Shown one piece after another: positions 3,850 through 53,811 of a stretch of DNA of 64,000 nt; the stretch's first letter is position 1, and each line of letters begins with the position of its first letter. The notes beneath the pieces were generated by a model. That model worked only from the letters and a program-made list of their open reading frames with translations, was not told the origin of the DNA and did not search any database. Origin of the DNA: Bryoerythrophyllum caledonicum (lineage: Eukaryota > Streptophyta > Bryopsida > Pottiales > Pottiaceae); contig OZ020514.1 of assembly GCA_963971425.1 (NCBI GenBank), forward strand, positions 24,850,602-24,914,601. Reading direction: 5' to 3'. The position numbers were made by a program, and so were the translations under genes.

Positions 3850-4689
3850 GTATATTCACCACCCAAGCGATTCGAAAGATAGTTTGACAACCTCTTCAAA
3901 AAGATGTAACTAATATTTAACTAAATGTGGATAAAACGATCAATTGTGGACCAAATTAGATACTTCTGACAACCCTAAACACCTACTAGATTGTCCTAAA
4001 ATATACAATTTATATGGGTGAAGGATACTCAGAGTCTACTGAGGATTGTTTATTTGTCGCGTGACTTCTCTTCTCGGGGGGCGGCCGACCATGAGGGTGC
4101 GTTGACGACCTAGACTCTTCGTCTTCTATATTAGACGACCTAGACTCTTTGTATCGCAGAGATATAATAGAAGGAATTAAAATGCAAGTGTCGGCGGATA
4201 GCCGAGACGTAGTGATCAAGGATAAGGTGAAATAAACCGAGATGGGAATGGCGTCATGCACAAAGTCCACCATCATGAGCGTCAAATTCTCTTCAGTAAA
4301 GGGCTCAAATCCTACGGCTAGTCGAGACAAGCATTAGATAGAGGTGGGTGGTTTGTAAGGACAAGGAGGCTAGAAAAGATTAGAAATGAGCTTCATACAA
4401 AACAATGAAGCCAGCGGTTGACAACACTTTGACAACCAAAAACGATTGCATCTGTGAGAAATAGTCAAAACGTTTGCATATAAGAGAAATAGTCAAAACG
4501 TTTGCATATGTTGTGTCAAGTGTATAGCCGCAGTCGGCGGGGAGCCGACAAGAACGCTCTCTTCTATCCAGAAAGAGACCTCGCCATCTAATAACCAAGA
4601 ATAGTACCTACAATGCGATCTGACAACAATTGAGTCCTATGATTAGGATTAAGCAACAATCCATCGGCTGGCAGCCGATGAGATATGAA
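3850..4689. other. Non-coding stretch downstream of transposase-like gene
   Basis: No convincing gene. Motif B palindromes lie at 4190-4206 (degenerate), 4533-4549 and 4663-4679, the last just downstream of the minus-strand stop at 4690. A direct duplication of about 29 bp (containing GAAATAGTCAAAACG) occurs at about 4458 and 4489. An 11-bp CGACCTAGACT repeat is found at about 4106 and 4136. Confidence 0.5.
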
Positions 4690-6718
4690 TCAGTCTTCAT
4701 CTCCACAATTGACTGAGATGCCACCAGCCTCCAGAGTTGCAATCGCAGCGCTCGCTGCCTTAGGGAGAATACGGTGAGAATTAGGAGGGCCTTTCTTAGT
4801 GTGCGATGGATAGCGGTGCGAGTAAAGAACAATTTTGCAGTTTTGTACCTCTAAAATACAAGGTTCTCTTTGCCATCTCTTGGTCCAACATTCCCTCGCG
4901 ACAATCTTCTTTGATTCCTTCTTCCCTAACATGGGCATCCACCATTCGACTTTGAAATTCCCGTAGCAATCTCCTGGTGTCAGATTAACGCATTCAAGAA
5001 CTCGGCCCATCCACACAGGAAGGTAATGACCGTTGCTAGGACGGCAGAGAACAAAATCACTGAGTAAAATGTCTCGAAATGGATTGAACGACAACTTTGG
5101 ACGGCTCAATTCAGGGCCACAGAAAGGATATGCGCCGGGGTCATCATCAGGGGTAATGTCCGGAATTCCAATGACGTCATCGGGCGACGAAGAGCTGCGA
5201 GTATGATCGCGAATCCAGTTTGAAGTTGGCCAAAACCCTTCCTGGAGTGACTCCCGGTTTGGTGGCAGGGGACCTGAAATAAGTTGATGGATACGCTCCC
5301 GGTACAAAATGTAAGGGGTCATATCCGCTGCATAACGCTTGTCCCGGGACATGCCGGTCTTCCAGAACTCAATATATTTGGCAATTCCGTTATTGATGAA
5401 GGATTGCTTCTCCCTGACTCCAGTGGCCCGAGCAACCTCCTTCTCCAGGTTTCTTTTGTTCTGGTTAACTCGGACGTCTCCCCAGAGGAGCTTAAATAGG
5501 ACTGGCTTTGGATCTCCAATAGGTAGGCGTGGATTTCCGTGCTCATTAGCGGTCCACATCTTGACAGGCTTACCTGTAGGATTCCAAGAAGAGTCAGAGG
5601 CACAAAATGAATGAGAACACGAACTCCTAGCAAAAATGTTTAGGTCCATCGGCGGGCCGCCGACGGAGATGGAAGACGACGATGGTGGAGAAAGCCGAAG
5701 AGAGATGGGACTAGGAGTGTTTCCACCTTGACTGGCTTACCTGGAGGAAGCCAGGATGAATCAATCGCACACTTCTTGTATCTCATGATCGGCCATCCAA
5801 CGTCATCTCCTTCCTCCTCCACGTAAAACTTGAACAGGTGCATCTTTTCCAATCCGACAATCTTGTTACTCCCGTCATGATGATATCCAGCAATATACTC
5901 TTAAAATCTGCAACCTCTTGGACAAGTTCCGGAATGAACGCGGCAGTCTTTTGCGAGTCCATGAAGGCTTTCATGAGGTCAGAAAAACAATAAGTGTTCT
6001 TTCGTTTGATGAGTTTCGAAAGGTAACTACAATGTGCTTCAATATCCTCATGAGTGTGGCCAACAATCAAGAATCCCACAATGACCTCCTTGAAGATTTT
6101 TCTAGCTGTAAGAAGCAAACAAAACACCATGAGGAACCGATTCTTGGTATCCTTGGCGGAGTTATCAAGCTAGAGAATCAACTTCCGAGGAAGCGGGACT
6201 TGTGGTCTATCAGGAGGAGTATTCGGGAACGAATCTCCTTTAGATTCTGGAATTGATGAAATACATCTGAACTTCCCATGAAGTAAAGCATCAAAGAAAG
6301 GATTCAGGAGTGGACATGTGAATAGCTCCTTGGACTCTCGCACCGGGCGCCTCTCTAATGCTCTTAGAACACGGGAGAGAGAAGAGATGGTGAAATTTAA
6401 GTCCCCCGGCCATAACGATGTCGAGTAATGAGAGTAGGCACCGTCGCCGTGTCCATGTGTAAGCATGCCGGTACATGAAATCGGAATTTGACCGAGCCTG
6501 ACGGTGGCCTTGGTAATCCTCTGCATTCTAGAAATAGCCGTCTTGGAGGTATCCATCTTGTCATGATTTATTCAAAGGAACTTAGATGGATACTGAATAG
6601 ACTGAGCCGACTAGCCGGAGTAAACATTTCCGCATGCCCTTTGGTAGTTTAGGTGGTTGTTTCTGTCATCCGTGAGTCCTTGTTACTCGTCTGACCCGCG
6701 AGGATATTTTGCAATAAA
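4690..6718 (-). pseudogene. 3-prime half of DUF7869-type transposase-like gene
   Basis: This is the C-terminal half of a minus-strand gene whose N-terminal half lies at 25761-28100, beyond a nested insertion. From 6556 downward it carries HYSTSLWPGDLNF, then LDNSAKDTKNRF, then LIVGHTHEDIEAH, the pattern I associate with DUF7869 proteins (transposase-like, RNase H-type fold). A conserved GKPVKMW block and a Trp-rich tail follow, ending at 4690. One intron (5574-5740) is supported by exact phase. Damage: TAG at 6170-6172 where the family has Gln before LDN, TAG at 6612-6614, TAA at 6683-6685, TGA at 6572-6574, and a frameshift near 5870. The family assignment is by memory of motifs. The gene is non-functional as it stands. 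Confidence 0.7.
5574..5740 (-). other. Intron flanked by duplicated exon sequence, with motif B
   Basis: The donor (CTCCAG then GTAAGC) and the acceptor (CCTACAG) give a 167-bp intron. Splicing joins codons in frame through a shared Gly (PPG then KPVKMW). The 43 bases around the donor and the 43 bases around the acceptor are about 74% identical, and both encode SSW-x-P-x-GKPVK. The intron therefore appears to have formed by duplication of an exonic segment carrying an AGGT site. Motif B sits inside at 5648-5664. Confidence 0.7.
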
Positions 6719-6723
6719 CTCGA
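6719..6723. repeat. Target-site duplication CTCGA, left copy
   Basis: CTCGA is directly repeated at 6719-6723 and 25756-25760, flanking the outer retroelement. With one copy and the element removed, the host frame reads straight through (DFL then VEF). Confidence 0.9.
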
Positions 6724-7799
6724 TGTTGCAGTTCGTAGAGACAGTATCCCTCCCAAATGCACCCAATTGTCACTAAGTGCTTCCCAGAGTAACCGCTCCG
6801 GTTTCGTTCCCACAGAGACCTAATACTCTTTCTCCAATACTCCGGATTACTTAAACCTTATCCCAACAATCCTTTTATTAGTTAGCTATATTCTTCACTT
6901 ACGTAGAATAGATCCGGATCCTTTCGGGGTCCGGATTATGTACAATGGTTTCCGGAAGGTAATTTCCGGAAATCTGGAGGGTAGTATAGTTTGCCTCTGT
7001 TCCTCCTCAGAGAGTCTCCTGGAGTTTTTAAACGAGTAGCCGGAGTCCACTGATCCTAAATTGTGTAAGTGGCTGGATTTCTCACTACCTTGAGACTTAA
7101 AGTGGCTAGGCATCCACTGTCCGGAACTTATAGTGACCGAACACCACTCTCCCTACAAAGCTAACCGATGATTTGATTGCTGCTGCTAGACTCAGACTCT
7201 CATGACATCCAGAAGGCCTTCCGGACGCGGTCACACAGAGCTAAGTCCAGACTACAACGATATTCCGGGGAATACAGTTGCAATTCTCCGGAACAGAGGC
7301 TCATCGTTCGCTATGGGTACTCCGTCTAGATCTTTGTATCAGGCTTTTTCCTATCTTAGGGAAGAACTCCGGTCGCTGACCGGAATCTAGTTTAATAGGG
7401 ATTCTTCCGTGAACTAGAGATTACTAGGAACACCTCTGCACTTCATCTCCTCCACTCCTGGCTACTTCCGGATCCTGGAGACTACCAGGAACACCTCTGC
7501 AATAGCTCTCTCTAGCTCTTCCAGGCGATCTCCTGACATTGACCTAGATAATTTCCCCCTTCGGCTAAACACTCGAGTTACACTATTCCGGACGAACCGT
7601 TCATACAATAGTACACACAAGAATGGATCAGGCCCTCACAAGTCATAAACACCACACCAAAAGTACCAGAGAGCAAGTCTGAGTAGAAGGGAGCGAAATT
7701 TATTTTGACCTGAGAAGAATAAGATCAACAGTTTTTGCCAAAACCTCACCATTAAGTACTAACTACATTCCTTCTAAACTAAGCCTTCCGCCTAGCCAT
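6724..7799 (-). other. 3-prime non-coding arm of gag-only element copy 1
   Basis: About 1.08 kb without a convincing ORF, matching 40435-41510 in copy 2. Shared blocks include TGATCCTA followed by TTGTGTAAGTGGC, repeated CCGGA-rich words, and two copies of a block ending AGGAACACCTCTGCA at about 7425 and 7485. The Gypsy element interrupts the arm at 7799. Confidence 0.75.
7795..7799. repeat. Target-site duplication GCCAT, left copy
   Basis: GCCAT occurs at 7795-7799 and again at 22924-22928, immediately outside the two LTRs of the nested Gypsy element. Confidence 0.93.
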
Positions 7800-8454
<655 letters not shown>

Positions 8455-8468
8455 TTATCCCCCTTCTA
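8455..8468 (-). promoter_or_regulatory. Polypurine tract of the nested Gypsy
   Basis: Directly beside the inner edge of the 3-prime LTR the minus strand reads AGAAGGGGGATAA, the expected plus-strand primer for an element in this orientation. Confidence 0.75.
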
Positions 8469-8655
8469 AACTACATCGGTCCTCCGATGTTTTTTTTTAT
8501 TTTTTATTTTTTTTATTTTTAATTGAAGGGCCTCTATGACTCCTTCTGGTGTTGCCGGAAAAAAAGTCTAAGTATTCAAAAACGAAAATTTGGGAGGAAG
8601 GGACTCCTAGCTAACATCCTTAAAAAAAATTTAAAAAAAAATCACTAGGGTACGC

Positions 8656-11276
8656 CTAGCCACTGGGAAAGACAACAACACCGGGGATGTCGCCAAAGGC
8701 ACCAATGCCTGGTGTCGCAGCTGGACTTCGGGTACCTCTGTCCGCTGCCCTGGAGATGCCACGGGGTGTCATTGCTTCGGGAGGAGGGCAAACCTCCATT
8801 GAAACCCATGCCGGGCCCCGACCCTGAGGAGACAGGTCAGCCGGCAGAGCCTGATCGCCAGTCTGCGATGGGCCCAGAGTGTGCGGGTGACTATTGTCGA
8901 GGTTGCTTGGTGGCCCATCACCTAGAGTCTGAACATCGGAGCTCCTAGGGTCAGACACTGGGGGTGGTCTCGGTGGCACGGTCGGGGTGTAGTGGCTACG
9001 GAATCCCTCCCAGGTCTGTGGAGGATAGGCAGACATGTAACCGCCATCCGAAGTCACTGTAGAAGGGGCCGCTGCGCTGCCACTGGTAGGCATCTGGGTC
9101 AAGATGAGGCCCGACTCCTGCTGCGACTCCAGGTCCCCAGCCAGAAAATCGAAGTCCGGGTAGGCTGCTGAAAATCGGTTCAGGTACCGGCGGTATCGGG
9201 CAACATCATCTGTATAGTGTTTCCAAGAATCCCACAACAGCCGGTGAGAAGGACCCATATGGCTGAGCGGCATACCTGGGTGAGTCAGTGGAGTCAAACC
9301 CCGACGCCGGTAATCCTCCACCAAAAAGTAGTGATCCAATACCAACTGATCATGAGCCTTCAGTCGGGCGTTCACCAACATCTCAATCTTGAGGCGCCTC
9401 AGCCGGGAAGCAGATATGGCTGCCTCCGCCTGGCGGGATGCATCTAGCTCCTAGCGTGTCCGGGTCAATTCCGCCTCTAATGTCTCCATCCGATCTTGGA
9501 GCCGGTTATACGTTGGCATAGGCACGGTCTGGGCCTGCTGCTCAACATGAAGGTCACGAAGCTGGGTCACCGCCGTCAAATTCTGCTCCAATGCTGTCAT
9601 CAGGGTCTGCATGCCAGCCATCACCGGGTCTGAAGTCGGATGTGAGGATTCACCTAGGGAGTCCAAAGGCCGGCGGCTGGTGATGCCCGGGGTATGGTCG
9701 GCCGGGGCTGTAACTTCCATCTCCACTAGTGGTGAGAAGGCATTCGGAACCTCTCCAGGGAGTAGCTCAGTGTTGGTTGTGGCGTTGCTAGCCGGCCGTT
9801 CATCCCTAGCAGCTCCAGCCAGCGGATGAGTCCCCGGCCCGGAATCAGAAGAACGAAAAATCTGCTGTGGGGTCTCCTCACTGGTGACCGGGTGATAAAT
9901 CTGCTGCTTCTTCGATGCTGGAGGCTGGCCGGGAGCTGACTCTTGGGGTTGCCCGGGCCGGAGTCAACTACTCCTTGCTCTAAGTTACCTCTCTCCTTGG
10001 AATCCATGCCATCGGTGGAGACCGGGCATGGTGACTGGTCGGTGTCCAAGGGCACTCCGGCTTGGACTTGCCCAGTGCCGTGAAGCTCCTGATTGACCTC
10101 CAAGTCCTGGTCAGGTCTGGGGCGCTCCCGGGTGACTGAAGGGATCGGTGTAGACCCCGTTGTACCTGGTCTTGTCGCCACCCCGGTCACACTCCGGTCT
10201 TTGGAGTCACCGTGACTCCTAGAGATACTATTGATCATCCGCTCCGTGAGGGCTGGAGTCTCCTTGTGAGTTTCTTGATTCCCATCCTCCACCTCCAGGT
10301 CGTCACTTGACTCCAAAGTTGGCCGGGAAGGACCGGCTCCAGTGAAGAAATGCTCGCCATGAGCTGGAAACCATTGCCGGAGAAGAGCTTCAATCAACTG
10401 TGCGCCCGGGATCTCCTTCATGTTCTTGCGTGCGTGACCCAAAACCCGGCGGAGGTTAGAAAGTACCAGCGGTGCCCAGTCTAATATCTCGTCTCTGGAC
10501 CTCACTGCTTCAAACAAATATTGAAGCAGGTTCAGGCTGGCGTGCGTGGGGGTCTTCTTTAGGCACAAAACCTCCAGAAGTGCCTTGATCCGGGGCTGGT
10601 AGTGCTCTCGGAACCCGGACACCCGAACTCCATCCATTTGAAAATCCTCTTCAACCAAAGAAAATCTCCGTGCAATGCTAGACCTCTGCTCCTCATCCTC
10701 CTTGTATGCCTTGAGCCTCCGGGTTCCGGTCAACCCAAATACCTCCCGGATCACTTCCGCCGACAATGCCACCTCCAGTCCTCTGACCCTGGCCCGAATA
10801 GGAGCTAGAGCGCCGCCAGCCTTGGTCTCTGGTGGGAGGATCCCTGCAATAAACTCTTGCACCAAATCCAAGCGAGGTGATGGCCAAACGTATTCATATA
10901 ATACCCCCAGCCCTACCTCACCGGCCCACCTGTCATCTCCGGCTTGCCTCCAGGGTTCCCAGTGAATCCACGAAGTGAAAGTCCATCCATACGCCGGCTC
11001 CGCTACCGCCAATCTCCGTGCTCCCCGGGTATATTTCTTCGCAAACCGGAGTCTAGTTGGAGAAGAATCTTCACCAGTGCCTGGAGTTGTCACACCAGCC
11101 TGGCGCCCAGGTGCTGTTGGTGTGGCAGTCTCAGGTGTAAGAATCTGCATGGCCTGGACTGGAACCTGGCGGGTCACCCGCCGGTGGCGCATCACCTGAA
11201 ATCTTCGTGCCTCGCTACCTGGTGTGCTGCCATTAGTGGTAGAGAGTAGAATAATACCTCCGGGCTGAGAAGCCAT
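8656..11276 (-). pseudogene. Extra ORF (ORF3) downstream of integrase
   Basis: A third ORF of the Gypsy, beginning at an ATG in good context (GCAATGGCT) at 11276 and originally about 870 codons. The intact first part (to 9726) has a globular region around residues 80-260 with RLRFAKKYTRG, GVLYEYVW and an FPAHGEHFF end. The pattern recalls the putative plant transposon-protein domain Transposase_32, a tentative match. A frameshift near 9.8 kb moves the frame, then a coiled coil follows (LEAELTRTR, stop, ELDASRQAEAAIS, with TAG at 9451-9453), and a Pro/Ser-rich tail ends at 8656. The architecture (globular domain, coiled coil, proline-rich tail) mirrors the ORF of the gag-only elements. Function unknown. 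Confidence 0.6.
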
Positions 11277-12660
11277 TGCTCCACTGGGTGGTGTGGCCGG
11301 GGTGTCACTGGGCTTCCTTGAGGTGAGTGAATCACCCGTTCTCGGTGACTATTGTCCGGGAGTGGAGATGTCTCCCCCGAAGCTTCAGCTGTTGCCATTA
11401 GTCCGAAATCAAGCCTGGTCCCGTATCTCCTGGGCCTGGGTCTACCAAATGATGAAAAATCCGAGTTAGAATCCCCCATCCAATCCTGGAGAGTTAGTGC
11501 CGGCTTACCTGGCCAGTGTTCTTCCGGGTTCAGCGCAGCCCAGTGATCAAGCTGATACTCCTCCCCAAGGCATTTTTTGTGCTCCCCCTCTACCCGGTCC
11601 CTAATACCTTGGTGGAAAAGATTAGGTCCCCACAACTCAACTAGTCCATGATTCTGGAGTCCCTTAACCGGTTGTTCATCCCGGCTACCTTTAAAAATCC
11701 TAATTTTGTTTGGAATTGAAAATTCCGTCCCCTCATGTACTAGGCCCGTATAACCACAAGAAGTGCTTCTAGGGCTTAACAGAATTTCCGGGAAATCAAA
11801 GGGCTGACCTGAAGTGTCGTGGCCGACTTCTTGCGCTCTCGGGCTGGAGCTTGGTAATCCTTTCGAGGTCTTCAGCTGGTGGTGCTCCCCTTTGGTCCGC
11901 TGTCGGTAAAGTGCCGCTAGTATCTCGTCCGGGTCGTCTGTTGTTTTGGCGTTGATCTCCGCCCTCACTCTAGTTGGGGGAGAAATCGAGGGCTCCTGCT
12001 CTGTGTTGGTGTTGGTCACCGCCTTTAGTCGGGTCTGCTCTGCTGTGATGCGCGCCTTCACCGCTCCTTGGTCGGTGCGTCTCTTCTCGTCCCTGTCAAG
12101 TTCCTGTCCGTTTGTCCCAGCTCCCTTGTGTCTGTAGTGCCTCCGGTGTGCTTCCGTCCCCGCCAGTCTTCGGCGTCGTGTGTTGCTACCGCTTGAGCTG
12201 ACACCGCCTCCGCGTTTCTCGTATGCTTTCGTGGCCGCGCGGTTTCCGTCCCGTCCTCCTTCCGCACCTCCTCAGTCGGGGCTCTGCCCGCCTCCGTCGT
12301 CTTCCTCACTAGCGTCGTGGTCTTGACCTTCGCAGTCACGGCGGCGATCTTCTCCGCTTCCCACCTACCCTGCGCCTGTGCTTTGTCGGAGGCGTTCCCT
12401 GCCGACTCACCGTGATTTTCGTCCTCCGCAGGTTTTACGGCGTCGTTGGATTCACCTCCGTGCAGCGTCTCCGCCGTGACTATTTCCACCTGTGGGGTGA
12501 CCTTGCGCCGTGTCACCGAGGTGGTTCCGTCTTGGCGTCTCGCTACTGTGGGCTCGTGCTCCCCCGACAGCACCTGCAACGCCCTCAAAACTCCAAGGTC
12601 TTCCTCCTGCGTAGGCGGCGTCGGCCTCGCCTCAGCCCCGAGCTCCTGCGGTGTTGATGG
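11192..12660 (-). pseudogene. Low-complexity reading frame between integrase tail and ORF3
   Basis: After the TAG at 12661-12663 the integrase-extension frame stays open to 12058 and is rich in Thr, Glu, Arg and Ala (hydrophilic, no domain recognised). A second frame continues from 12061 to 11192 with moderate-complexity sequence such as ELWGPNLFHQGIRDRV and WMGDSNSDF, overlapping the start of ORF3 by 85 bases. These may be one protein broken by a frameshift near 12060. I recognise no family. Confidence 0.4.
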
Positions 12661-14334
12661 CTATTGTATTGCCCCTTCCGGAGTCTTCTGAGCCGTGCCT
12701 GTGGTGCTCAGCTCCTCTGCCACGGCCTTCTTCAATTTTCGCGTCTCAAATTGCCCGGCTACAAGCTTCGGTGAGAGCTCTTCGGCCGACTCTCCGTCCT
12801 CTATTCTACAAACCACCTCTCCAACCCCTAATTTACAAAACCCTAAACCTTCTAGATTTAATATACAATCGCCATAGCCGACCTCCTCCTTGCAACGCTC
12901 TTCCTCTTCCCCAAAAACACCTCCAGGAACATTGCCCAAGTGAAATGGACAATCTTCGTGAAAGTCTACTTGGGGTTTCATCCTAGCAGGATGACATTCA
13001 TCTCCAGTGGATGAAAACCCGAATTCTTCATCCCTTGTTCCTTTTTTTTGCAATTCCAGCTTCTTTTCCTTTCCTGCAGCTTTTTCTTTTTCTGCTGCTT
13101 TTTCTGCAACTTTTTCTTTTTCAGCTACTATATCCTTTTCTTTTTCTTTTTCTGCAGCCATTTCTTTTTCTTCTTCTTTTTCTACAGCTTTTGTTTTTTT
13201 AACTACTTTTTCAGCACCTTTTCCCTTTGCTACTTCTTTTCTTTTCTCTTTCTTTTCTTCCACTGCTATTTCTTTTTCCTTTTCCTTTGGCCGGCTACCC
13301 TGCTGCTCTTTTCCCGCCAGCCTCCTAACCACTCTACCTTTCATTTTTCCCACTAAGCTTTCCCTTTCCTCTTCTTTTTGCTCTCGGCCATCTAAGGTCT
13401 CCAGGGCCAGTCCCGGCTCTCCGGGATCCTGCCGGGTTGTGCCCGAGTGACCCTTGGGCTCCTGTTCGCGTTCAGTTTCGGGTGCAAGGCTGATCATTGG
13501 CCGCAGCTGTCTTTGACACTCTTGGTCGGGCTCTTGCTCTTGATTTGCTCCCTGGTCATGCTCGTCATCGGGGTTCGGTCCTGGGCTCGGTTTCTCCCCT
13601 CGGTCTGTGGCCTGGGCCTCCAACCAACTCCGGCTGGTCTCCGGTTTCGGTTCCCAAACCACCTCCACAACGCTGCAACCCAAGGAAAAACCCCAACTTG
13701 ATTCTTCAACTTTCCGCTCCTCTCTTAAGTTGTGACTCACCTCGCCGGAGGCTGTGTGCTGTTCGGGTTCAAAAATCCGGCTGCCCTGGAGGTCTTGCTC
13801 CCCGGTGCTCCCGGTCTCCTTCGTGCAATCCGGACCTGCCACTCCCCTATCCCCCTTCTGCTGCTCAACCCGCCCATGGGTGGACTCATTCGGGCTGATG
13901 GTGACCAACTGGTCCTTTTCATAGAACCGGTAGGGCTTCAACTTGTTGATGTTGACAAGGATGGGATTCGGCTCAAAGTGAGCCATCGTGACCAGGAGTG
14001 CCGTGTTGTTGGGTAACCGGTATTGTATCCGGTAAGGCCCAAACCACCGGCTCTTAAATTTTCCGGTGTGATCCTTGTGGCCCTTAGGATACCAAAGCAC
14101 GTGATCTCCCAGCTGAAAATCCTTTTGCTTATAGTGTTGCTGACTCCACAACGCCCGGTCCCATTGCTTCACTCCGACCCGGTCCTGCGCTGACGACCGG
14201 TAACTGTCCATCTGCTCCAAGTCTGCTACCCGGGCTGTCAAGACCCTGGTCGGGTTGTAGTCCGTCTCGCCGGTTGCTGTCTTCGTGGGCACGATGTACT
14301 CCGTTGGCATAAGGGGGTGCAGCCCGTACACCAG
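12661..14334 (-). pseudogene. Integrase C-terminal part with long charged extension
   Basis: This frame follows directly from the integrase core after a TAG at 14335-14337, where the family normally has Gln (TGHTPF then LVYG). It contains the usual Gypsy C-terminal segment (GDHVLWYPKGHKDH, FGPYRIQY, VNINKLKPYRF, roughly residues 75-150). About 400 further residues follow that are not part of a normal integrase, including a Lys/Glu-rich block with repeats like EKEKVAEKAAEKEK (roughly residues 335-430). It ends at TAG 12661. The antisense strand of this block makes spurious Phe/Ser-rich ORFs. Confidence 0.75.
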
Positions 14335-15119
14335 CTAGAATGGAGTATGCCCGGTAGAAACCTTATACGCCGTGCGGTATGAAAACAATACCGTCGAGAG
14401 GTGCTCGTCCCAGTCCGTTCGCTGGTCATTCACAAGTTTGGTCAAAAGTTGGCCAATCACCTTGTTCGTGCTCTCAGCCTGGCCATTACCCTGGGGATAA
14501 TATGTAGTGGATGTCCGGTGTTGAAGCAAAAAATGCTCCACAAGATGGTCTATTGTCTCATTGATGAAATGAGTCCCCAGGTCACTGACCAGTGTCAACG
14601 GACACCCGTAGCGAGTCAGGATCTGCTCATAGAGAAAACGGGCAGTAATCGCCGCGGAATTGGTCTTCAATGCCCGCGCTTCCACCCACTTAGTGGCGTA
14701 GTTGGTGGCGACCAGGATATACCGGCAGCCTGACCGGGATGCCATGGGCTTGATGGGACCAATGAAATCCAACCCCCATTTCATGAACGGCTCCGCGGGC
14801 ATACTGGTCACCAATTGAGCCAGCCCAGTGTTTGCCATCCCGCCGACCCGCTGGCACTTATCGCATGCTCGGCAGTAGTCAAAAACATCCCGGTGTATGT
14901 TCGGCCACCAGTAGCCTGCGTCGAGGATCTTCCGGGCGGTGATCTCCTGGGAAAAATGCCCACCGCCAATGCCGTTGTATAACTCCTTCATGATCAGGTC
15001 AGCTTGTCCCGGGTCCAATACTCGCCGGAGGACTAAGTCCTGGCCGCGTTTGTGAAGAATCCCGGAGATTAGAGTGAATGGCAGCGACTTCAGAATTAGC
15101 TTGCGTTGCTCCTCTTGGT
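14335..15119 (-). pseudogene. Gypsy integrase core
   Basis: Contains the HHCC zinc-binding region (GHFSQEITARKILD, then WWPNIHRDVFDYC and ACDKCQ) and the DDE core: LDFIGPI with the first Asp, VSDLGTHF with the second, and YYPQGNGQAESTNK with the Glu. It is separated from the RNase H frame by a one-base shift near 15120 and from its own C-terminal part by a TAG at 14335-14337. It would integrate the element's DNA in the nucleus if repaired; as read it is broken. Confidence 0.9.
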
Positions 15120-39233: not shown

Positions 39234-39241
39234 CAGCACTA

Positions 39242-39248: not shown

Positions 39249-39436
39249 ACTATATGCGATGTGCTTGACTCACCTCACATCCTTGGCTTCGTGTCCTAGA
39301 ACTCCTTATTGGGCTCCTTGCATGAATCTACAAGTTTGTGAGTGACCTTTGGGTCCACATTTTCTATGCACACACAATTTCCTATTACTTTTGGCGGATT
39401 CTCTTTGGCACAACATTGCGCGCCAATTTTATTGTG

Positions 39437-43736: not shown

Positions 43737-44242
43737 TTCTGCAGAGATTCCTCACAGTCTCTCCGGTATCACCTGCACGCACTGACCTCGCCACACACTC
43801 TCTCTAATGGAAACACTTCCGTTCTAGGGGGATTACAATGCACGGGCAAAGGAAAAAGAGTAAGCCAAGAAGTGTGGGGAGTGAACCCTAACTTCTGGCT
43901 TAAATACCTTCTGCGGTGTACGGACGGCCGTTATGGTTATAATAGCGTTTCCGGCTCCGGATCCATTCCGAATCCGGATTCTCTCCGGTTCCGGTTTACT
44001 TCCGGTTCCGGATGCTTCCGGCAGGTTCCGGACGTGAGCGGTCTCTCTGGTTCCAAATCCCTTGGATTTATGGTAATTCCTAAACGGTTTTAAGGATCAT
44101 TGGTACCCCTAGGTTGTCTTATTTCTTATTTGCCTATTCTATAGTTCAAACTTATGATTCTAACGTTCTAACACTAATTTTTTTTTGTTTGTGCCGGATT
44201 TTTAGGTTAACATCCGGAACCTTGTGGGAACAGATTCCCATA

Positions 44243-44247
44243 CAGAC
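44243..44247. repeat. Target-site duplication CAGAC, right copy
   Basis: The partner of 40430-40434. Confidence 0.88.
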
Positions 44248-46517
44248 CTCGTCCAGAAGGCGAAACAGATTGCATTGTATATCCGGAACCACCATGTGCC
44301 CATGGCTCGTTTTTGTCGATTTTTGCCAAAATTGTCTTTGTTGTGGCCAACAGCAACAAGGTTTGCATGCAATTACATAATGATCCATCGTCTGTTGGAA
44401 GTGAAGAATGCCCTGGAGATGGTTGTGATAGACCCAGCATGGATATCCTACGTATCTTCTCTTTTTGATAGGCAAAACGGGCACCGTGCCCATGCGAAGG
44501 CATCGCAGGTGCGAGCCACCGTTCTAGACGAGACTTTCTGGCATCGGTGCACTAACTTTGAATTCGTAGTGGCACCAGTACTAAAGGCATTGCGGACTTT
44601 TGATGGTGACACTCCGGCAATGGGAATTGCTTGGATGACCATGAACAAGCTAAAGGAGCACGTGTTCAAGCTGCGCAATGCAAAATTCAACATGCTTGAC
44701 GGAATTGCAACTCGCCTTGAAGGATCATTCCTACAGCGTTGGGAGATGATGACAACAAATCTCCATTATGCAGGGGCTTTATTGAATCCTTATCTAGCCA
44801 ATAACTTGCAAATTCAAAACAATGGTGAGGCCAAAAGGGCCCTAAAGAAGGTTGTTACGACGCTCTGTGGTCCACTCGGAGTGTCTTTTTCGGCAGCAAT
44901 GCTCGAAATCACGGAGTATGAAGAATTGCGAGGCCCATATTCACCATTGGAAGCTGCGGAAATTGAAAACATCAATCTGTTGCCTCACCAATGGTGGAAT
45001 TGCGTGGGCGGGCAATCATTGCCTATCATTGCAAAGCATATAGTAGCATAAACCTGCTCGGCCTCGTCATGTGAGCGTAATTGGAGCATGTAATTGTTCG
45101 TGCATAGTAAGAGCTGAAATTGCTTGGGAGTGTAGAAAGCGGAAGATTTGGTTTACATCTACATGAATAGTCGATTGCTCCGAGAACGTGCTCGTCCAGA
45201 CCCGATTCGATGGTATGAGGAGAATGTGCATTTGGAGGAGTCTGATCCAGATGGGGGACTTCCTTCAAACACAGAGGACGAGGGCTTGGAGTCGGATGAT
45301 GAGGGTTACAACTGGATGGGCGGCGATTGGGAAGACCTTGCCGGTGACAACAACCCCGTGTCTGATCATAGCCCACCTAGGGGCAACTCTGCAAACAACG
45401 AGCACGGTAGAGATGCACTACATGACCATTTTCACAACGTCCACGGTGACCCAGTGGATGGGTCCGCATGTGTTTGACATCATTCTTCGTCTACCTTAGT
45501 GTTTGACCATTGTTCGTCTGCCCGACTATCTTCGTCTGACCTAGTGTTTGATGATGTCGACGCAGCGGCAGTCCATACTATAGTAGAATTATCGGGTGAA
45601 ACCGTGCCCAAGAAGCTAGGGCAGACGAAGATGGGTCGGCATTGGCGGGCAATCTTGATGGAGATGACAACATCTTGGAGAATCAGTCCATGAACTCAAA
45701 CGGCTCTAGCGCCTCGGGCCCTTCTAGTGGCGATGGCCCTGAACTCGACGGTCATGGCATTGGCATTGCAGCAAACGATACATTTCCTCACGATGGAAAC
45801 GAAGTGAGCAGTGGTGGAAACGATAATGAATCCCATGAGCCAATGGCCACCACGGGGTCCATTGAAGTTGTGAGAAGCTCTCCAGTTTTGCCTCAAGCAA
45901 TAAAACCGGACTCAGAGGAAGACATGCCACTCCAAGATTTGTTTCGGCGGCCACGTGCTCAAAGTACCGCATCGGTCGGAAGAACTCTTTTACGTGTAAA
46001 GAAAAAGACCTCTTTAACAATAGTTCGGTCACCCGTCCACCGTAGCGCACTCGGCCCAAATGGTGGTGTGGAGCGTGCGATACTAACCCCACAACTTCCC
46101 TCCGGGAGGGTTGGGTCCTCTACTATGAGCAGCCATTTAGGGACACGGAGGGGCCAGAACAATGGTACTCTCCCTTTCTTCACGGGACCTTGGCGAGATG
46201 GAACCTCGGAGAGAGTCATTGGGGCCAAAGGCAACCGCTCCAAAAACATGGATGGAGTAACAGACAAAAGGAAGAATATCCGAGTAAAACGACTTGTGAA
46301 CGCCGCATCAACTACTGGAGCCGAGCTACAACTACGAAACTTGGCCTCAGAGATTGAGGAGTACGTGGCACTAGTCTTGGAAAATGCAGCCGAGAACTTC
46401 TCATCATCGGGCGATGATGCAGACGATGAGGATTGCGATGAGGTACCTGGCGACAATACGGTGGTGCTTCGCGGGCTTTCTCTTCCCCAAAATGTTCGCC
46501 GATCAAAACGGAAGTGA
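44248..46517 (+). pseudogene. hAT transposase copy 1, C-terminal half
   Basis: Resumes with LVQKAKQIALYIRNHH. FDRQNGHRAHAK, FWHRCTNFEFV and YAGALLNPYLANN follow, then the hAT dimerisation end (CSASSCERNWSM, VYIYMNSRLL), with an acidic tail (HLEESDPD, DDADDEDCDEVPG) ending at 46517. In the dimerisation region four stops fall within about 100 bases (TAA 45049, then TAA, TGA, TAG to about 45137). A frame change lies around 45480-45640. Copy 2 at 60.5-63.9 kb has the same parts in the same order, including the unusually long acidic tail. Confidence 0.8.
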
Positions 46518-46783
46518 AAACACAATGAAGAATCCTCAAGCTCAGATGATTAAAAGATGACGGACATGAGGGTACTACAAGTTAAAAGTGACTTTAGTGG
46601 TGTGGTTAAAGCATTGTACAATAGTACCGCGGTTTTAAAATATGTACTTGGTGTTGAGAGTGCCATTCATGAAAGCACCACATTGTAATAAATAATTTTA
46701 ATGTTAGAGCACCTTGGTACAATTGAATTCTTTCAAATTCTCTAAACCTCAGCCCTTTTGAGGGACAGACGCAGTGTTCGATC
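46518..46783. other. Spacer, no gene seen
   Basis: Nothing recognised between the hAT copy and cluster 6. Confidence 0.4.
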
Positions 46784-47130
46784 GCGCGCGCCCGGCCCCT
46801 AACCGCGGGCGCCCGATAGGCAGGTGCGCGCGCGACCGACAATGGTACGCGCCAGGCCCGTGACGCTGCGCGCCCGGCCCTTAACGGTACGCGCCCGACC
46901 TTGACGGTACGCGCCCGGCCCTGAGTGCAACGCGCCCGGCCCTGAAATGTACGCGCGAGGCCCTTAGGGGCACGCACCCGGCCCTGTATGCACGTGCCCG
47001 GCCCTAAATCGTATGCGCGCGGCCCTAATTGGAACGCGCCTGGCCCTATATGAACGCGCCCGGTCTAGAATGGTACGCGCCCAGCCCCAAATGCTGCGCG
47101 CGCGAACCAATGGCACGCGTCCGCCCCTTG
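46784..47130 (+). repeat. GC-rich minisatellite cluster 6
   Basis: About 15 units such as GGTACGCGCCCGGCCCTGA, the longest plus-oriented cluster with a regular period. It ends about 180 bp before the TATA box at 47310, further than in clusters 2-5; a TCCGTC-rich tract lies between. Confidence 0.9.
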
Positions 47131-47247
47131 ATGTGACGTGGAAAGCCGTCTGACGTGTCGTGCACACGTGTTTTACTAGGGGTTAAGTTGAAAATTTGAT
47201 TTAGGGTTTGTAATTTTTTTTACCCGCAACTGTTCGCCAAAAAGTGT

Positions 47248-47306
47248 TGTCCGTCCTGTCCGTCCGTCCTACTGTCCATCCGTCTGCTGTCTTTGGGCCC
47301 CTGTCC
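47248..47306 (+). repeat. TCCGTC-rich tract upstream of the ParB-like gene
   Basis: Repeated GTCCGTC words directly before the TATA box. Similar tracts occur at about 30105-30190 and, reversed, at about 59930-60000. Confidence 0.7.
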
Positions 47307-47309
47307 GTC

Positions 47310-47316
47310 TATATAG
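47310..47316 (+). promoter_or_regulatory. TATA box of the ParB-like gene
   Basis: TATATAG in GTCTATATAGAC, 19 bp before the ATG at 47335, so the transcript start would lie very near that ATG. A downstream start is possible. Confidence 0.45.
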
Positions 47317-47334
47317 ACAACCTTGGAGTTGAGT

Positions 47335-48073
47335 ATGCAGGTGGTCAAGAGGAGGGCGTCAAAGAAGGAGCCGAAGGTGAAGTCCGTGGCCGATGCGCTT
47401 TTATTTGCCAACCACCTCTCTGTCAAGACGAGTGGTCAGGAGCTGGACATCATGTACAAGGCATTAGAGGATGGTCTTAGCGCTTGTTATCCATTCGGGC
47501 AGAACAAGCTCCCAGCGAAACGCAAAAATTCATGTTGCTCCCAACTCGAGGAAGTACAGACCCATCATCGCGAAGCGCACACAACAACTTGTGCTGTTCT
47601 ATAAACGATTGGGACCATGGCGGGCAAAGCCGCCTCTGTATTGTGTTCCTCTACGGGGTCCCCCGGGAACAAAAAAGAATGGGAGGGAGTTGCACGGGAT
47701 CAAGCTTGTGCTGCCTAGGATTCACGCGTCCATGGACGTCAAAGTTGTGCTTGATGGAGTACACTACAAGTGGTGGAATTCTCCAATATGCCACTGGTAC
47801 ATCATTGGTGGCCAACACACGTACCTGGCATGCAAAGCACTCGGCAAGTTGGTGCCTGTGGATTCGGATAGGGCGAATTACTTCCTCGATCACGATATTA
47901 TCCCATTGTGGTCAAGGGATCCGGACAACCTCGTGAAGATCTCCAACCTCTTGAACATCAAAATCAAGGACAAGAAAGCCGAAGAGACCTTCGTGTCGCA
48001 GCTCCGAAAGATGAGGGATGAGTTGATCAAGCATGGTCGGCTCGACAGGAGGACCAACTACAAGAAATAGAAG
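47335..48073 (+). pseudogene. ParB/Srx-like domain exon
   Basis: Starts MQVVKRRASKKEPK (basic). A frameshift lies near 47530. The main part then reads YKWWNSPICHWYIIGGQHTYLA, then DHDIIPLWSRDPDNLVKISN, ending RTNYKK with TAG 48068-48070 just before a donor (AAG then GTAATG at 48074). GGQHTYLA sits where ParB/sulfiredoxin-fold proteins have a GERR or GGNHR motif, and WSRDPD fits the following strand. I recall similar plant proteins of unknown role; the fold assignment is tentative. Intron 1 (about 48074-48235) holds motif B at 48160-48176. Confidence 0.5.
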
Positions 48074-48235
48074 GTAATGTGTCTCTTCACTCGCCAATTT
48101 TGCTCTCCATTATTGACAATCTCATGAGCATGGTGGAATTAAATCATTGTTTATGTTTCATCGGCGGGCAGCCAACAACATTGTGATTGAGCTCATGTGA
48201 ATGTAATATTTATTATTGTACACGAGTTTTGCAAG

Positions 48236-49515
48236 GAATACCTTTCAACATTGTTGGGGAAGGACTCCAAGACGGACACCTTGAAGGTGCCGCTTGTATT
48301 TGCACCAGACAATATTTACAACAAGTGGCAAGAAGTATTCGACGCATGGGATTGGGGCACCTTGATTGGTGAGGATGGGAAGAAGCCCCAAAACATCCTT
48401 CAAATTCCTCAACAGGACCTCACCCTCTACGACCTTCAACACATTCTCGCCCTCCGGGACGAGGAATCCATGAAGCTTGCTCATGAAATCCTCGCGAAGA
48501 AGGTATACTTGAAGGTAACCGGAGGCCGCAACAAGGATGCAGAAGGAGTTTCGCTCAAATCCTCGTGTCAGGATAAGAAGATGGAATACATCATCAAGAA
48601 CGAGCTCATGCTGATGTATCGGAAGTATCCATTGAAGAAGGCTGGCGATAACACCTACTCACCTTGGCCGGTTGAAGAGTACATGGAGCTGGCGGACGAG
48701 AAGGGCATCAACGACAAAACCATCTTGAACATCAGACGCGAGCTAGAGCTTAGTGATCCGAGAAAGGCCTACCTCAAAGGAAGGTATAGCGGAATTACAC
48801 CAAGTACCACCCCTGCTCCAGCGGAGTTCCATGCGGCGTTACAAAAGTATGCCCTCAACAGCAACAATGTTGTAGATGAGTATAGTGCCCGTCAGGAAGT
48901 TTGAGTTGCGCAGGAGCTTGAGGACGTCGTGAGCCTGATCGATGCACCCGGACTCTTCAATCTCGAGAAGGCGGCGCGCGAGATGTTCATCGTGTTTGGC
49001 TTCGATAAGTGTGGGGTCCCGATCTTTTACAACAAAGACGGGCTCAAGGCTGTTGCAAAGAGGCTATTGCGGTGTCAGAGGTTGATAGGGAACTCTATGC
49101 TCCTTCAGTCTTCATCACAGAGGACGAGTCTAATTTCGTGATTGAGACTGAATGTCATTCGAAGAAGCTGGATTGCGCAGTTCACACCATCCGCTACCTT
49201 CTAGACTCGAGCAGAAGATTCACTCCCTCCGCCATGGACGAGAGACCCATGGTGCATGTCGGCATCCTCTTCAACCAGCCCGGAGCTCAACGGGACCGCC
49301 TGCGCCAGTTCCAAAAGGTAACCAGATTGAAAAAGCCTTTCAGTCTACTCTATGACGATGCTGCCTTGCCCTCGGCTGAGAGTTCGGCTGGAGATGAATG
49401 CCATCCAAGCTTAGGGTTGCTCTCATCAATTTTGCAACCCACACTGGTGAAGGGCGACTTAAGTTTGACCATCTTCAACACTTGGGGTGGAGGCAACGTG
49501 ACTGCATTGGCCTTG
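48236..49515 (+). pseudogene. Middle exon of the ParB-like gene
   Basis: Open in one frame to 48904 (VPLVFAPDNIYNKWQEVFDAW, LTLYDLQHILALRDEES, YIIKNELMLMYRKYP), then TGA 48902-48904. The same frame continues with LEDVVSLIDAPGLFNLEK and FGFDKCGVP. Shifts near 49070 and 49400 follow; the frame then ends LGWRQRDCIGLG with a perfect donor GTAAGT at 49516. It is helical and hydrophilic, with no family recognised beyond its link to the ParB-like exon. Confidence 0.5.
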
Positions 49516-49635
49516 GTAAGTCACCTCTCCTTCATCCATTCATTCCTTCTTTCTTTCACCTTCTCATGTTCGTCGGCAGCCCGTCAATGAGATAGTTTTC
49601 ATTTTGATTATTGATCGACTCTGTTTGCCCAACAG
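49516..49635 (+). other. Intron with motif B
   Basis: GTAAGT at 49516 to CCCAACAG at 49635, 120 bp, with a T-rich acceptor. Motif B lies at 49572-49588 (GTCGGCAGCCCGTCAAT). Confidence 0.75.
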
Positions 49636-50688
49636 CAACATAAAACGACAGTGATCGAGTTTGTTCGCAAGGAGGCGGAGGTTGCTGCCGCGATGGAGCG
49701 AGTACAGGCGATGTCCTTCCTACCGGGCAGAGCTCACCTGCTTGCGTTAACGCTTCCAATTGAGCCCACTGTGGAACCCATCGAGGTGGTCAACTTGACT
49801 GAAGCCGACTAGGATTCAGACCATGGGACCGAGATGGGCGAGGATGCGTTGGAAGACAGCCTTTTCCCGACAACGTCGAGAACGATGGACTGCTCTCAGC
49901 AGCCAACTTAGATGTTTGTCTTGATGAAGTACACCTCATACGGCCTCAAAAGGGAGGAAAGACACCAGTTGTGGTGCGACCAGAGGTGGAGCCGCGGCGC
50001 GATGACCGTCCCCCTGCACTAAGCGGGATGATCGTCCCCTTGTTCGCACAGCCTGCGGATGAAACCGTCGTGCGCTTGCAAGGTGCCTTCGTCCCTCCCC
50101 GAGCTGTAACCCCCATCGACCATGGAATTGGCGGCCCGCCGACACCGCCTGCACCAAGCTCCCTTGTATCTGGTGGGCCTGTACCGCGTGAGAATCCTTC
50201 GAGTTCTTCACACCCAAGCACTTCCACTACTTCAAAATCCGGCAATGTTCCACATCATGCACCGGTGCAAGAAGTGGTGAGCAAAAAAAAGAAACCGAAT
50301 GTGAGGATTATACCTCCAAACCGGACTACTCGCGTTACGGCTTCCGAAATCAGTGGAGGACAGACTCCCCAGAGTTCTGCCCCCACCGAGCCATCGAAAA
50401 AAAGACAACGAAGCCAATCGTAGAAGAGCAAGGCACCGTCAGAAGAAGGTGGCCTTTCATTGGGAGTGCCGTCACCGAAGAGCACTTCGAAGAACACCAA
50501 GGAGGGGCGGTCAAGGAAGCGGTCGCCTCCGCCTCCGAAAAAGGGATTGCGGAAGTCAAAGAGGGGGGGTAGCGTTGGTTCTACCCGAAGGGAACTTTCG
50601 ATGACCCCTAACTCTGCTGATCATCCCAACACGGGGCTTTCGCCTACAGCTCCTCCTGTGAGGCACGATACAGGCAATACATCCACAG
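49636..50688 (+). pseudogene. Basic, Pro/Ser-rich linker exon
   Basis: Begins QQHKTTVIEFVRKEAEV, with TAG near 49810 and a shift near 49866. It is then open (VVVRPEVEPRRDDRP, PSKKRQRSQS, TAG 50421-50423, KSKAPSEEGG, KGLRKSKRGGSV) to a donor ACAG then GTTAGT at 50689. It is low-complexity, disordered and rich in Lys/Arg/Pro/Ser, like a nuclear linker. Motif B at 50127-50143 lies inside the exon and is read as IGGPPT. Confidence 0.5.
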
Positions 50689-50915
50689 GTTAGTCACGAG
50701 ATAGTACACCTAGGAGATTTTTCTTCCAGTTTAGCACACTACCTTTCTCATAAATGTACTTTATCACGTGAACTCAAAGCTCCTTTTCCATGGTTGTTCT
50801 TCTGATTTCGCAAACTATTATCAGAATGTGTTTCCATGTTCCACTTCTCTGTCGGCTGCCCGCCGACTGTATATCTAATAGCTTCCATATTTCTCTCAAT
50901 GAGCAGTTCATCCAG
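50689..50915 (+). other. Intron with motif B
   Basis: GTTAGT to TCATCCAG; the phase is correct on both sides (STG then IPPPT). Motif B is at 50851-50867. Confidence 0.65.
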
Positions 50916-51769
50916 GTATTCCTCCTCCTACTGTTTTAACTCCAGCAATTGACAAAGATGGAGCGGATCGGGAAACGGAGGCATTTGAGCACGACATTCA
51001 GGTGGGCAGACAACCACTCAATAACTATTTTCTTGTCCTCCAAGTAGACGGTCTGTTACTCGCCCTAGATATTGACAAGGACGGGTCGTTGAATAGCAAG
51101 ATCCGGCCACGCATGGTTGAGTTTCTTAACTACTACATTTCGAACTTTAGTATTGTGGTCTGGAGTTTGGAGAATCCAAATAGGCATGCCCATGAAATGA
51201 AAACCCTTAGAGATGCATGTCCCGGATTTAGAAGGCTTCGTTATATTTTTAATTAGTCGTACTACGACGTGGCGAGGTTTGGTGTTGGGGGTCAGAAACT
51301 CTACCTGAAGAGGTTGTCTATGCTTTTCTTGAGTCCCTCGGCGCTAAAAGGAACTGAAGCAAATAGCGGCAACACTCTATTGATTGACGTTTCTCCTTTT
51401 ACAAACGTCAAGAACAGTCCATATAATGCTATCCATCTTGTTCCCTTCACCATGGATTCTATTGAGACCTCCACGAATGAGTCGTCTATTCTCTTCAAGG
51501 TCTCAAAGTTCCTTGAAGCAATGAAAGCGTCAGGCATGCTTGTACCCTTGTATACCGCGGTTGCAGATTCCCTTTCCTTGGTGAAAGAATCGGTTGTGCC
51601 TTTCAAAAGTCCAAGGAAGGCAGCTATTCGCTTGGTAGAAAAAGACAAAACTTCCACTGCCAGGGCCGTCGTCCCTTGGATCCGTCGTCTCCTACCAGGT
51701 GACCCTGAATGGGAGCAGTACATATGGTCGTACCCAAGCAATAGGCGTCCACGTCCTAGTACTACTTAG
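50916..51769 (+). pseudogene. HAD module 1 (FCP1/NIF-like)
   Basis: IPPPTVLTPAIDKDG leads into NYFLVLQVDGLLLALD (motif I has Val in place of the nucleophile Asp), RPRMVEFLNYYISNF, IVVWSLENP, then TAG 51254-51256, SYYDVARFG and NTLLIDVSPFTNVKNSPYN. The end is LPGDPEWEQYIWSYPSNRRP and stop 51769. It is fully collinear with module 2. Loss of the acidic nucleophile and pair argues against phosphatase activity; it may bind a partner instead. Intron phase ties it to the ParB-like gene upstream. Confidence 0.6.
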
Positions 51770-51777
51770 AACTTGCC

Positions 51778-51794
51778 GTCGGCGGGCAGCCGAC
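51778..51794. repeat. Motif B, perfect form, 8 bp after a stop codon
   Basis: GTCGGCGGGCAGCCGAC. The same sequence lies 10 bp after the stop of module 2 at 52691-52707, so the motif was duplicated with the module or acts in the 3-prime end. Confidence 0.85.
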
Positions 51795-51961
51795 GCTTGC
51801 AAAACCCATGTTGTAATTCACGCCTGTATAAATCCACATAAATAAAGATTGTCTCCAACTTTTTGAGGTTCATATTCCAAATATATATCGTCATAACAAT
51901 CATAGTGTCCGGTGCTTATGTTTGATACTTATTATATCTATGTCATCGACTTTTGCCTCCA

Positions 51962-52680
51962 GGTGCCCCACATTGTGGCTGGGTCTCAAGCGGGGGGAGA
52001 ATCCATCCAGAAGCATCCTGAGGTGCGAACTGTGAAGGTCAATCACTACTTCATTGTCTTAGGTGTAAACCGTTTGTTGATCGCACAGAATACAAGCAAG
52101 GACGGAAAGTGGCATACCAAATTCAGGCCGAAGTTGGCTGAGTTTATCAACTTCTGCGTGGATAACTTTACAGCTGTGCTTTGGAGTAGTGAAAGTCAGC
52201 CTAAGCTAGCTGCCCAATTGATAGCCCTCAGAGGCCACTGCCCTGTTTTTAAAGTAGTCAAACACGTGTACGATAATTCCTACTGTGATGTAGCTAAGAA
52301 ACTGGTAGTAACTCGGAACATATACCTCATGAGACTGTCTACATTGTTTTTGAACCAAAAGGCAATGCTAGGATCTGGTGCGAATAGTGAGAACACCATC
52401 TTGCTTGACCATTGTCCGATCAAAAATGTCAGAAATAGTCCTCTTAATGCAATGCATCCGATGACATTCACCTTGGAGTCAATGGAGTCGGACAAGAACG
52501 TTGTTCTTCCCGGGTCGTTAAGTACCTCTCCGCTTTGTTAGAGTCAGGCTTGCCTGTACCCGAATATATTCGGAGGAATCCTAGCTCTGGATGCCCTCGA
52601 CTCTGCCCTGGTGACCCACAATGGGAGGACTTTGTTCTGGCGTACCCGAGCAGTAGGCGCCCCCCTCGTTCCGTTGCATA
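51962..52680 (+). pseudogene. HAD module 2 (FCP1/NIF-like)
   Basis: Follows an acceptor TTTTGCCTCCAG. VNHYFIVLGVNRLLIAQN (motif I degenerate), KFRPKLAEFINFCVDNF, AVLWSSESQ, KHVYDNSYCDVAKK and NTILLDHCPIKNVRNSP are readable. A one-base shift near 52507 separates the end, LCPGDPQWEDFVLAYPSS and stop near 52680. About 40% of residues match module 1. Confidence 0.6.
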
Positions 52681-52690
52681 GTAGTTTGGC

Positions 52691-52707
52691 GTCGGCGGGC
52701 AGCCGAC
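52691..52707. repeat. Motif B after module 2
   Basis: GTCGGCGGGCAGCCGAC, identical to 51778-51794. Confidence 0.85.
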
Positions 52708-52854
52708 GCCGAAATCGCCCAATTTTGCCAGGCTTTGACATTCATGTCTGTAACACCATTTTTCTTCGAAATAAAATTCCTCACAATAATCACAATCTCC
52801 CTTGCACATGGCTCATCACTTATTGTATGCATTTGAATCGACTTTTCCATTCAA

Positions 52855-53430
52855 GTGGACTATCCTGTCGAGGAGATTGAGGAGCTGGTTCTGATTCTAA
52901 AAAACCCGGTTATTATAATATTCAATGACAACTCACCGGAGAGACCGAGTCGTCACCCGATCGACGACTCGCAGTCAACAGCTTCCCTCCCCGACATTCG
53001 TCCTACCCACTATTTTGGTATGGAAGATGACGTTCGAGACTTTGCACCATCACCGCTGGAGGAGGTGGGGCCCAAATGTGTCCACCGTGTTCCTGTCGAA
53101 TCCGTTGCGGACCAATGTATCAACCGAGAAGGCAACAGCCAAGCCTTCGCCTCCAACGGAGCTTGGCTTGGGTCGGACGAAGTAGTTGGCGGGCCGCCGA
53201 CCGCTATATCTACCCCAAACCCGGCTGCCTACGAGAGCTCCAAAGTTGTTCCAAGGAACATTCAGGTGGGTCCTTCAAGATACTACCTCGTCCTAGAAGT
53301 TAGAGGGCTTCTAATGGCTGAACGATATGGTTATCCGGGAAGAGATAAGAAGCCCCATTTGTGGGCTCCGGATTCACCATCCGGTGGACTCCGGATTCAC
53401 CGTCCAAGATTATTGGAGGCTAAATTCTGA
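52855..53430 (+). pseudogene. HAD module 3, N-terminal part only
   Basis: After an acceptor like that of module 2 (CGACTTTTCCATTCAAG), it has an acidic linker (VEEIEELVLILKNP), in-frame motif B at 53185-53201 read as VVGGPPTAI, then RYYLVLEVRGLLMAERY, and stops soon after. The WS and terminal acidic motifs are missing or scrambled in other frames up to about 53570. A truncated module. Confidence 0.5.
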
Positions 53431-53794
53431 TTTGGGTCACTGTCGTATTTTCCCGGGAACAGCGGTCCACAATAGATACCGAGAAGTCCTTTCTTCTTAC
53501 CAAGAGGGCTTCGACAAGCCAGGTTGTCTAGATGAAATAATGGCGAAGTTGACAGTCACTCCCCCACCTTAGAGAGCCATATTTTCTGAGAGGGCCTCCC
53601 GATTTGGCACCCACTTAAATTCACCGGACTCTCGCCCATCATAATACAGTGATAAATGTTATAGGCAATTTCATATAATTACTTTTATGTATTCATCTCA
53701 AATTTTGCTAAACTAATTTTCTTTGTTTTATATTCCTCGCATATTTCATTTCAGTGGTTTGTTTCATATCCTTCTACTTCTTGTAGTTTTCTCC

Positions 53795-53811
53795 GTTGGC
53801 GGCCCGCCGAC
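53795..53811. repeat. Motif B before module 4
   Basis: GTTGGCGGCCCGCCGAC, about 65 bp upstream of a splice-acceptor-like CATTTTCCAG. Confidence 0.8.

Follow-up and report, generated by a model that had tools for sequence, protein, structure and literature searches.

En/Spm (CACTA) transposons carry repeated short sites for a transposon-encoded protein, TnpA, near their ends in subterminal position. In the VANDAL transposons of Arabidopsis, short motifs in introns, intergenic regions and terminal non-coding DNA recruit the anti-silencing proteins VANC21 and VANC6, and according to passages of the two reports these motifs differ between families and evolve as tandem repeats (Hosaka 2017, PMC5735166; Sasaki 2023, PMC10398659). 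Sola DNA transposons are described in passages of a review as having 4-bp target site duplications (TSDs), terminal inverted repeats (TIRs) and lengths from 2 to over 15 kb, and as reported from a moss (PMC10741241). In this study, we analyzed a stretch of 64,000 nucleotides from Bryoerythrophyllum caledonicum (GCA_963971425.1, contig OZ020514.1, positions 24,850,602 to 24,914,601 of the forward strand; this whole stretch is called the window), for which an earlier model-made note, called the original prediction here, had described a dispersed 17-bp palindrome. All 20 palindromes listed there lie inside one DNA transposon with a DUF7869 gene, present in three pieces of the window. With a probability of roughly 0.6 for the whole reading, we interpret the palindromes as putative cis-acting recognition sites for a dimer of a protein encoded by the element.

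At each of the 20 positions the motif or a variant of it was found. It consists of two inverted half-sites GTCGGC(G/T)G flanking one central base. The window contains 26 matches to GTCGGCGGGCAGCCGAC at up to three mismatches, and 100 dinucleotide shuffles gave a mean of 0.08 and a maximum of 2. The genome, 437 Mb in 894 contigs, contains 206 perfect matches to the 17-mer and none to its reversed control, while RTYGGCNGSCNGCCRAY occurs at 2032 places compared with 4 for its control. GRAS genes, which mark streptophytes, are abundant in this genome with 75 matches, in agreement with its plant origin. A chance origin is ruled out by the shuffles for the window and by the reversed and control counts for the genome, and the non-randomness and repetition claimed for the motif are thereby confirmed. 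Fifty of the 2032 places, all on contig C1 and including related copies, were listed; those of them whose sequence was retrieved belong to the group of elements described here or to short derivatives of it.

The eight loci analyzed around exact copies all align to the window at 84-91%. Comparison with longer copies revealed that positions 3907-6725, 25755-30094 and 47326-54459 of the window form one repeated element with two later insertions between the pieces. Intact copies have a length of about 15.5 kb, are about 96% alike, bear a 23-bp TIR, AACGGATATTTAACTAAATGTGG, at their ends and are flanked by 4-bp TSDs (AATA, AAAC, ATAC). At up to two mismatches, this terminal repeat has 494 occurrences in the genome and none for the control. 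Because later insertions split the window copy, the Gypsy element and the block at 30-47 kb, both located within these insertions, are free of the motif, as had been stated correctly before.

The layout of this family (family 1) recurs in a second one (family 2; C1:13424051-13440451) together with a very similar terminal repeat and the duplication TTAA, at 58.5% identity over 14297 aligned columns. Family 1 was represented mainly by one copy, copy d, and family 2 by one copy, so that the core counts given below are counts per copy; for orthology, sites scoring 14 of 17 with the core left free were used (24 in family 1, 21 in family 2). In a plain alignment, 16 of the 24 palindromes of family 1 pair with one of the 21 of family 2 at a distance of at most 4 columns, and the flanks of the paired sites (60 bp per side) are 38-61% identical. 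Since motifs may attract each other in an alignment, it was repeated with the motifs masked and with the motifs excised. At a distance of at most 10 columns, 13 of the 24 sites still paired after masking and 15 of the 24 after excision, whereas 2000 random draws gave means of 0.58 and 0.59, respectively, and never more than 4. These numbers are far above the null, and thus most sites are maintained in place as their surroundings diverged. The palindromes occur along the entire length of the element (15.5 kb), separated by 43-1477 bp in family 1 and by 120-2286 bp in family 2, and they are not arranged in tandem in either family.

Core letters were counted at sites with at least 10 of the 12 arm bases (25 in copy d, 20 in family 2). 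In family 2, 38 of the 40 half-sites have T as core base 7, whereas the 50 half-sites of family 1 have G (33), T (13), C (2) or A (2) at this base (family difference P=6e-12); T in both halves is present at 18 of 20 sites in family 2 and at 2 of 25 sites in family 1 (P=3e-8). The half-sites of family 1 vary independently: among sites with G or T only, GG, GT and TT were counted 11, 9 and 2 times with 10.9, 9.2 and 1.9 expected, and at a looser threshold the window copy gave 6, 9 and 1 with 6.9, 7.2 and 1.9 expected. At GT sites either G opposes A or T opposes C, and the core of 9 of the 22 family 1 sites with G/T cores is therefore unpairable. Genome-wide, symmetric cores with intact arms are T/A at 428 and G/C at 197 places, but A/T at one and C/G at none; all four are pairable, and since a hairpin would treat them alike, this bias points to reading by a protein. 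Over the 50 listed places no association between the arms was detected (positions 1/17, P=0.47; positions 3/15, P=0.42), and the earlier impression that substitutions often keep the arms paired was not confirmed. Judged by these patterns, a dimeric protein-binding site is favored over an RNA hairpin as the probable nature of the motif.

For analysis of the placement, coding blocks were defined by six-frame matches between the families. In copy d, such blocks conserved between the families comprise 9369 of 15505 bp, and just 3 of 31 sites are located inside them when the threshold is relaxed to 9 or more matching bases among the 12 of the arms, at which shuffles give about 6 sites; two of these three have the weakest score. 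Two palindromes of copy d, those at 7963 and 9376 of the element (window 48160 and 49572), have splice-like borders on both sides, and the palindromes at 11553 and 12467 (window 51778 and 52691) are located 8-9 bp past stop codons and upstream of AATAAA-like strings. The bias toward non-coding DNA noticed in the original prediction is thus partly confirmed, and so are its two copies past stop codons; placement between two splice-like borders was seen at two sites only.

The palindromes are also present in short non-autonomous derivatives of 333 bp, for which 1876 first-look candidates were obtained; the best 40 scored at 94-100% identity. The 19 aligned copies (18 from the best 40 of the 1876 plus L032) over-represent well-kept copies, and 14 of them have a perfect 4-bp duplication. 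In all 19, a recognizable palindrome is present at both places, with starts near positions 65 and 270 of the 333 bp, and its core is of the family 2 type in nearly all. CpG columns were changed in 2 of 152 cells within the palindromes and in 40 of 266 cells elsewhere, or in 18 of 209 once three polymorphic columns are excluded (P=0.002). This lower change fits selection or a local lack of methylation.

Dispersed, constrained, family-specific and symmetric sites, seen only in this element group where sequence was examined, are best explained as putative dimer-binding sites of an element-encoded protein. Each palindrome would be a two-fold site read on the DNA by the dimer, and with about 20-25 sites in introns, intergenic gaps and subterminal DNA the protein could cover the non-coding parts of the element that encodes it. 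The most likely effect would be to open or protect the chromatin of this transposon family, in the manner of VANC proteins, and/or to help the transposase to find the ends. Binding by a protein, its origin from the element, the gene responsible, and anti-silencing or transposition as the outcome are all points that we infer; by analogy, anti-silencing or self-activation would be the favored outcome, and pure transposase binding its main rival. Several observations weigh against this interpretation. Eight of the 24 sites of family 1 have no partner of family 2 in the alignment, and in the short copies, palindrome columns outside CpG are no better conserved than the remaining columns (0.953 vs 0.975). 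At least three sites can be read in frame in exons, within weakly conserved linkers, which agrees with the exon-readable copies described before. Furthermore, profile searches against Pfam, NCBIfam and PDB sequences gave no convincing match to a DNA-binding domain for the proteins of the element, and a host protein could bind in their place.

The last point leads to the explanation that the palindrome is the site of a host transcription or chromatin protein exploited by the element. Symmetric, CpG-containing sites fit many dimeric factors, but the core differs between the transposon families, which is better compatible with a family-encoded protein, and the confinement of the places with retrieved sequence to this element group and its short derivatives also argues against a host site; we regard it as rather improbable. 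Somewhat better placed, but still unlikely, is the assumption that the DUF7869 transposase alone binds the palindromes, like the subterminal repeats of other plant transposons, with the internal sites being surplus or regulatory. The retention of one palindrome near each end of the short derivatives and a weak palindrome near the right end of copy d (element position 15442) agree with it, but the sites run through the whole element at the spacings given above. Two DUF7869 stretches of other families are without the motif, although their transposases share just 23-27% identity and might recognize other sites.

The two ideas of the original prediction on the nature of the motif were not supported. 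RNA hairpins with a function in splicing or at 3′-ends would account for the several sites in introns or right after stop codons; they are very improbable in view of the missing covariation, the unpairable G/T cores and the near absence of the pairable A/T and C/G cores. In addition, the motif is kept in the derivatives of about 333 bp, and an Rfam scan of the window at gathering thresholds gave 0 matches. A tiny palindrome mobile by itself, suggested by many like copies at many places, has the lowest probability of all explanations considered. When the 25 sites of copy d were compared with copies h, i, j, k, a and c2, the window and L058, counting cells with at least 15 aligned bases on each side of the site, 148 of 149 cells contained all 17 bases with substitutions at most, and the remaining one had a partial deletion. 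Also, most sites are orthologous between the two old families, with the masked and excised alignments agreeing, and flanking direct repeats were found at one site only (about 37 bp, element position 1709).

Within the reading as dimer-binding sites of an element-encoded protein, we tentatively propose that the palindromes form an address code readable by a dimer over the whole body of the element, with the core letter as family mark. Family 1 might then be half-way through a T/G specificity switch, its half-sites flipping independently at dispersed positions; this is possible rather than probable. If true, the co-evolution of a selfish DNA-binding protein with about 50 half-sites per element would be recorded here, and it would have occurred without tandem-repeat amplification, the process invoked for the change of VANC motifs. 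The testable question raised is how a protein and its numerous dispersed binding sites can shift their specificity jointly, for which one genome offers a nearly pure state (family 2), a mixed state (family 1) and the 1876 candidate short derivatives.

In the window, the transposon copy, its insertions and selected features are arranged as follows.

3907 to 6725: transposon piece 1 with the end of the DUF7869 gene (minus strand); palindromes at 4190, 4533, 4663 and 5648 and a weaker one at 4073
3908 to 3930, plus strand: left TIR, 2 mismatches to AACGGATATTTAACTAAATGTGG
5783 to 6169, minus strand: DUF7869 match, presumed transposase (E 4e-24)
6726 to 25754: later insertion containing the Gypsy element, with a CTCGA duplication and TG..CA outer ends
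25755 to 30094: transposon piece 2 with the 5′ part of the DUF7869 gene and the start of gene 2; palindromes at 25978, 27008, 27881, 28002, 29061, 29126, 29289 and 29448
30095 to 47325: later 17.2-kb insertion within gene 2, with the 10-bp duplication GAGTTGAGTA on both sides
47326 to 54459: transposon piece 3 with the remainder of gene 2 and NIF-like genes (plus strand); palindromes at 48160, 49572, 50127, 50851, 51778, 52691, 53185 and 53795
47468 to 48070, plus strand: conserved stretch of gene 2 (GGQHTY block), without database match
48191 to 48904, plus strand: second exon of gene 2, with a weak HTH_36 match (E 0.007) under the curated cut-off
50851 to 50867, minus strand: exact palindrome GTCGGCGGGCAGCCGAC with mixed G/T core, upstream of a NIF-like gene
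51778 to 51794, plus strand: exact palindrome, 8 bp past a stop codon
51906 to 52541, plus strand: NIF/FCP1-like domain (E 2e-07) of one of several tandem NIF-like genes
52691 to 52707, plus strand: exact palindrome, 9 bp past a stop codon

The right terminal 0.9 kb of this element copy was not found within the window. The first insertion has no long direct repeats at its very ends; these are located internally, and it is therefore probably composite. For the 17.2-kb insertion, which has a kinase-like frame inside (31022-32512), the length of the 10-bp duplication suggests a Mutator-like element. In the region around window position 5648 (copy d 1709), the palindrome stretch is located between two copies of a segment of about 37 bp ending in CAGGTAAGCCTGTC, as if an intron had arisen by duplication of an AGGT-containing segment.

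The DUF7869 protein is encoded on one strand of the element, while its opposite strand contains gene 2 and the NIF/FCP1-like genes in tandem. The DUF7869 protein is presumed to be the transposase. For DUF7869 (PF25273), 3612 first-look candidates were obtained in the genome, many of the best 150 scored being located in open frames of 1000-1090 aa; no matches were found in 14 control genomes, and a literature search on the name DUF7869 found no paper. It is a large, little-described family of such presumed transposases. Gene 2 had 990 first-look candidates, of which the best 150 were scored, and a third gene-2 family is intermediate at about 60% identity. The idea taken from the GGQHTY block that gene 2 is ParB-like was not supported by the profile searches mentioned above. 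Between families 1 and 2, the presumed transposase core is 73% identical, gene 2 48-57%, and the best NIF-like pairs 49-52%. The tandem NIF/FCP1-like genes, by which the transposon would carry several phosphatase-like proteins, occupy window positions 51257-54328 with a repeat of about 0.9 kb.

Two other DUF7869 stretches, L059 and the C9 family, had neither a gene 2 or NIF-like match in tblastn nor the motif, and the motif as a general feature of DUF7869 transposons is thus unsupported. L059, which comprises 10 kb around a DUF7869 frame of 1074 aa, contains no repeated palindrome, and the C9 family (L035-L038, 1087-aa DUF7869 frame) has a different palindrome, GGTCGAGGCCTCGACC, in a local 2-kb tandem repeat. 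In that tandem repeat upstream of the frame, a 24-bp palindrome, GAGGGGTCGAGGCCTCGACCCCTC, is repeated, whose GTCG..CGAC ends are shared with the motif studied here. The motif may travel with the accessory genes, of which these stretches give a weak indication, as they extend to neither end of the C7 element and to just one end of the C9 element.

Among the first 100 entries in the list of exact 17-mers, 99 are located on contig C1 (65.2 Mb, 15% of the genome), which contains the window; C1 would hold nearly half of all 206 if the listing runs contig by contig. The copies occur in clusters within elements and thus cannot be counted as independent. A special status of C1 as a chromosome is possible, perhaps sex-linked or rich in transposons.

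Compared with the systems described above, a literature search for Sola features, Sola in mosses and dispersed palindromic transposon motifs revealed nothing matching in titles and the beginnings of abstracts, and also no named family was found for the motif, as had been anticipated. With Sola transposons, the element shares 4-bp TSDs (including TTAA of family 2), TIRs and its length of 15.5 kb, and it is possibly of the Sola type by these characters; the review passages (PMC10741241) mention no dispersed palindrome. Like miniature inverted-repeat transposable elements (MITEs), the 333-bp derivative is short, has TIRs, 4-bp TSDs and a high copy number and offers no room for a gene, but it differs by one palindrome near each end. 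The repeated short sites near the ends, putatively for a transposon-encoded protein, resemble those of En/Spm TnpA, which are subterminal, in contrast to the spread over the whole element found here, and no CACTA features were seen in the element.

By analogy, the nearest parallel to the palindromes is the anti-silencing motif of the VANC/VANDAL system. As far as the consulted passages of the VANDAL reports describe it, both have a motif in the non-coding DNA of their own family, a confinement checked here at sampled places, motif letters that differ between related families, here with one copy per family, and a large transposon with accessory genes beside the transposase. The VANDAL motif has 9 bases, is arranged in tandem repeats and belongs to Mutator-like elements, and its binding has been shown. 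The palindromes described here comprise 17 bp, are single, dispersed and old, and belong to a DUF7869 element whose domain and 4-bp TSDs are not suggestive of Mutator. The element would be a second kind of selfish element marking its own non-coding DNA by a private motif, which, instead of being tandem and fast-changing, is palindromic, dispersed and old in this case.

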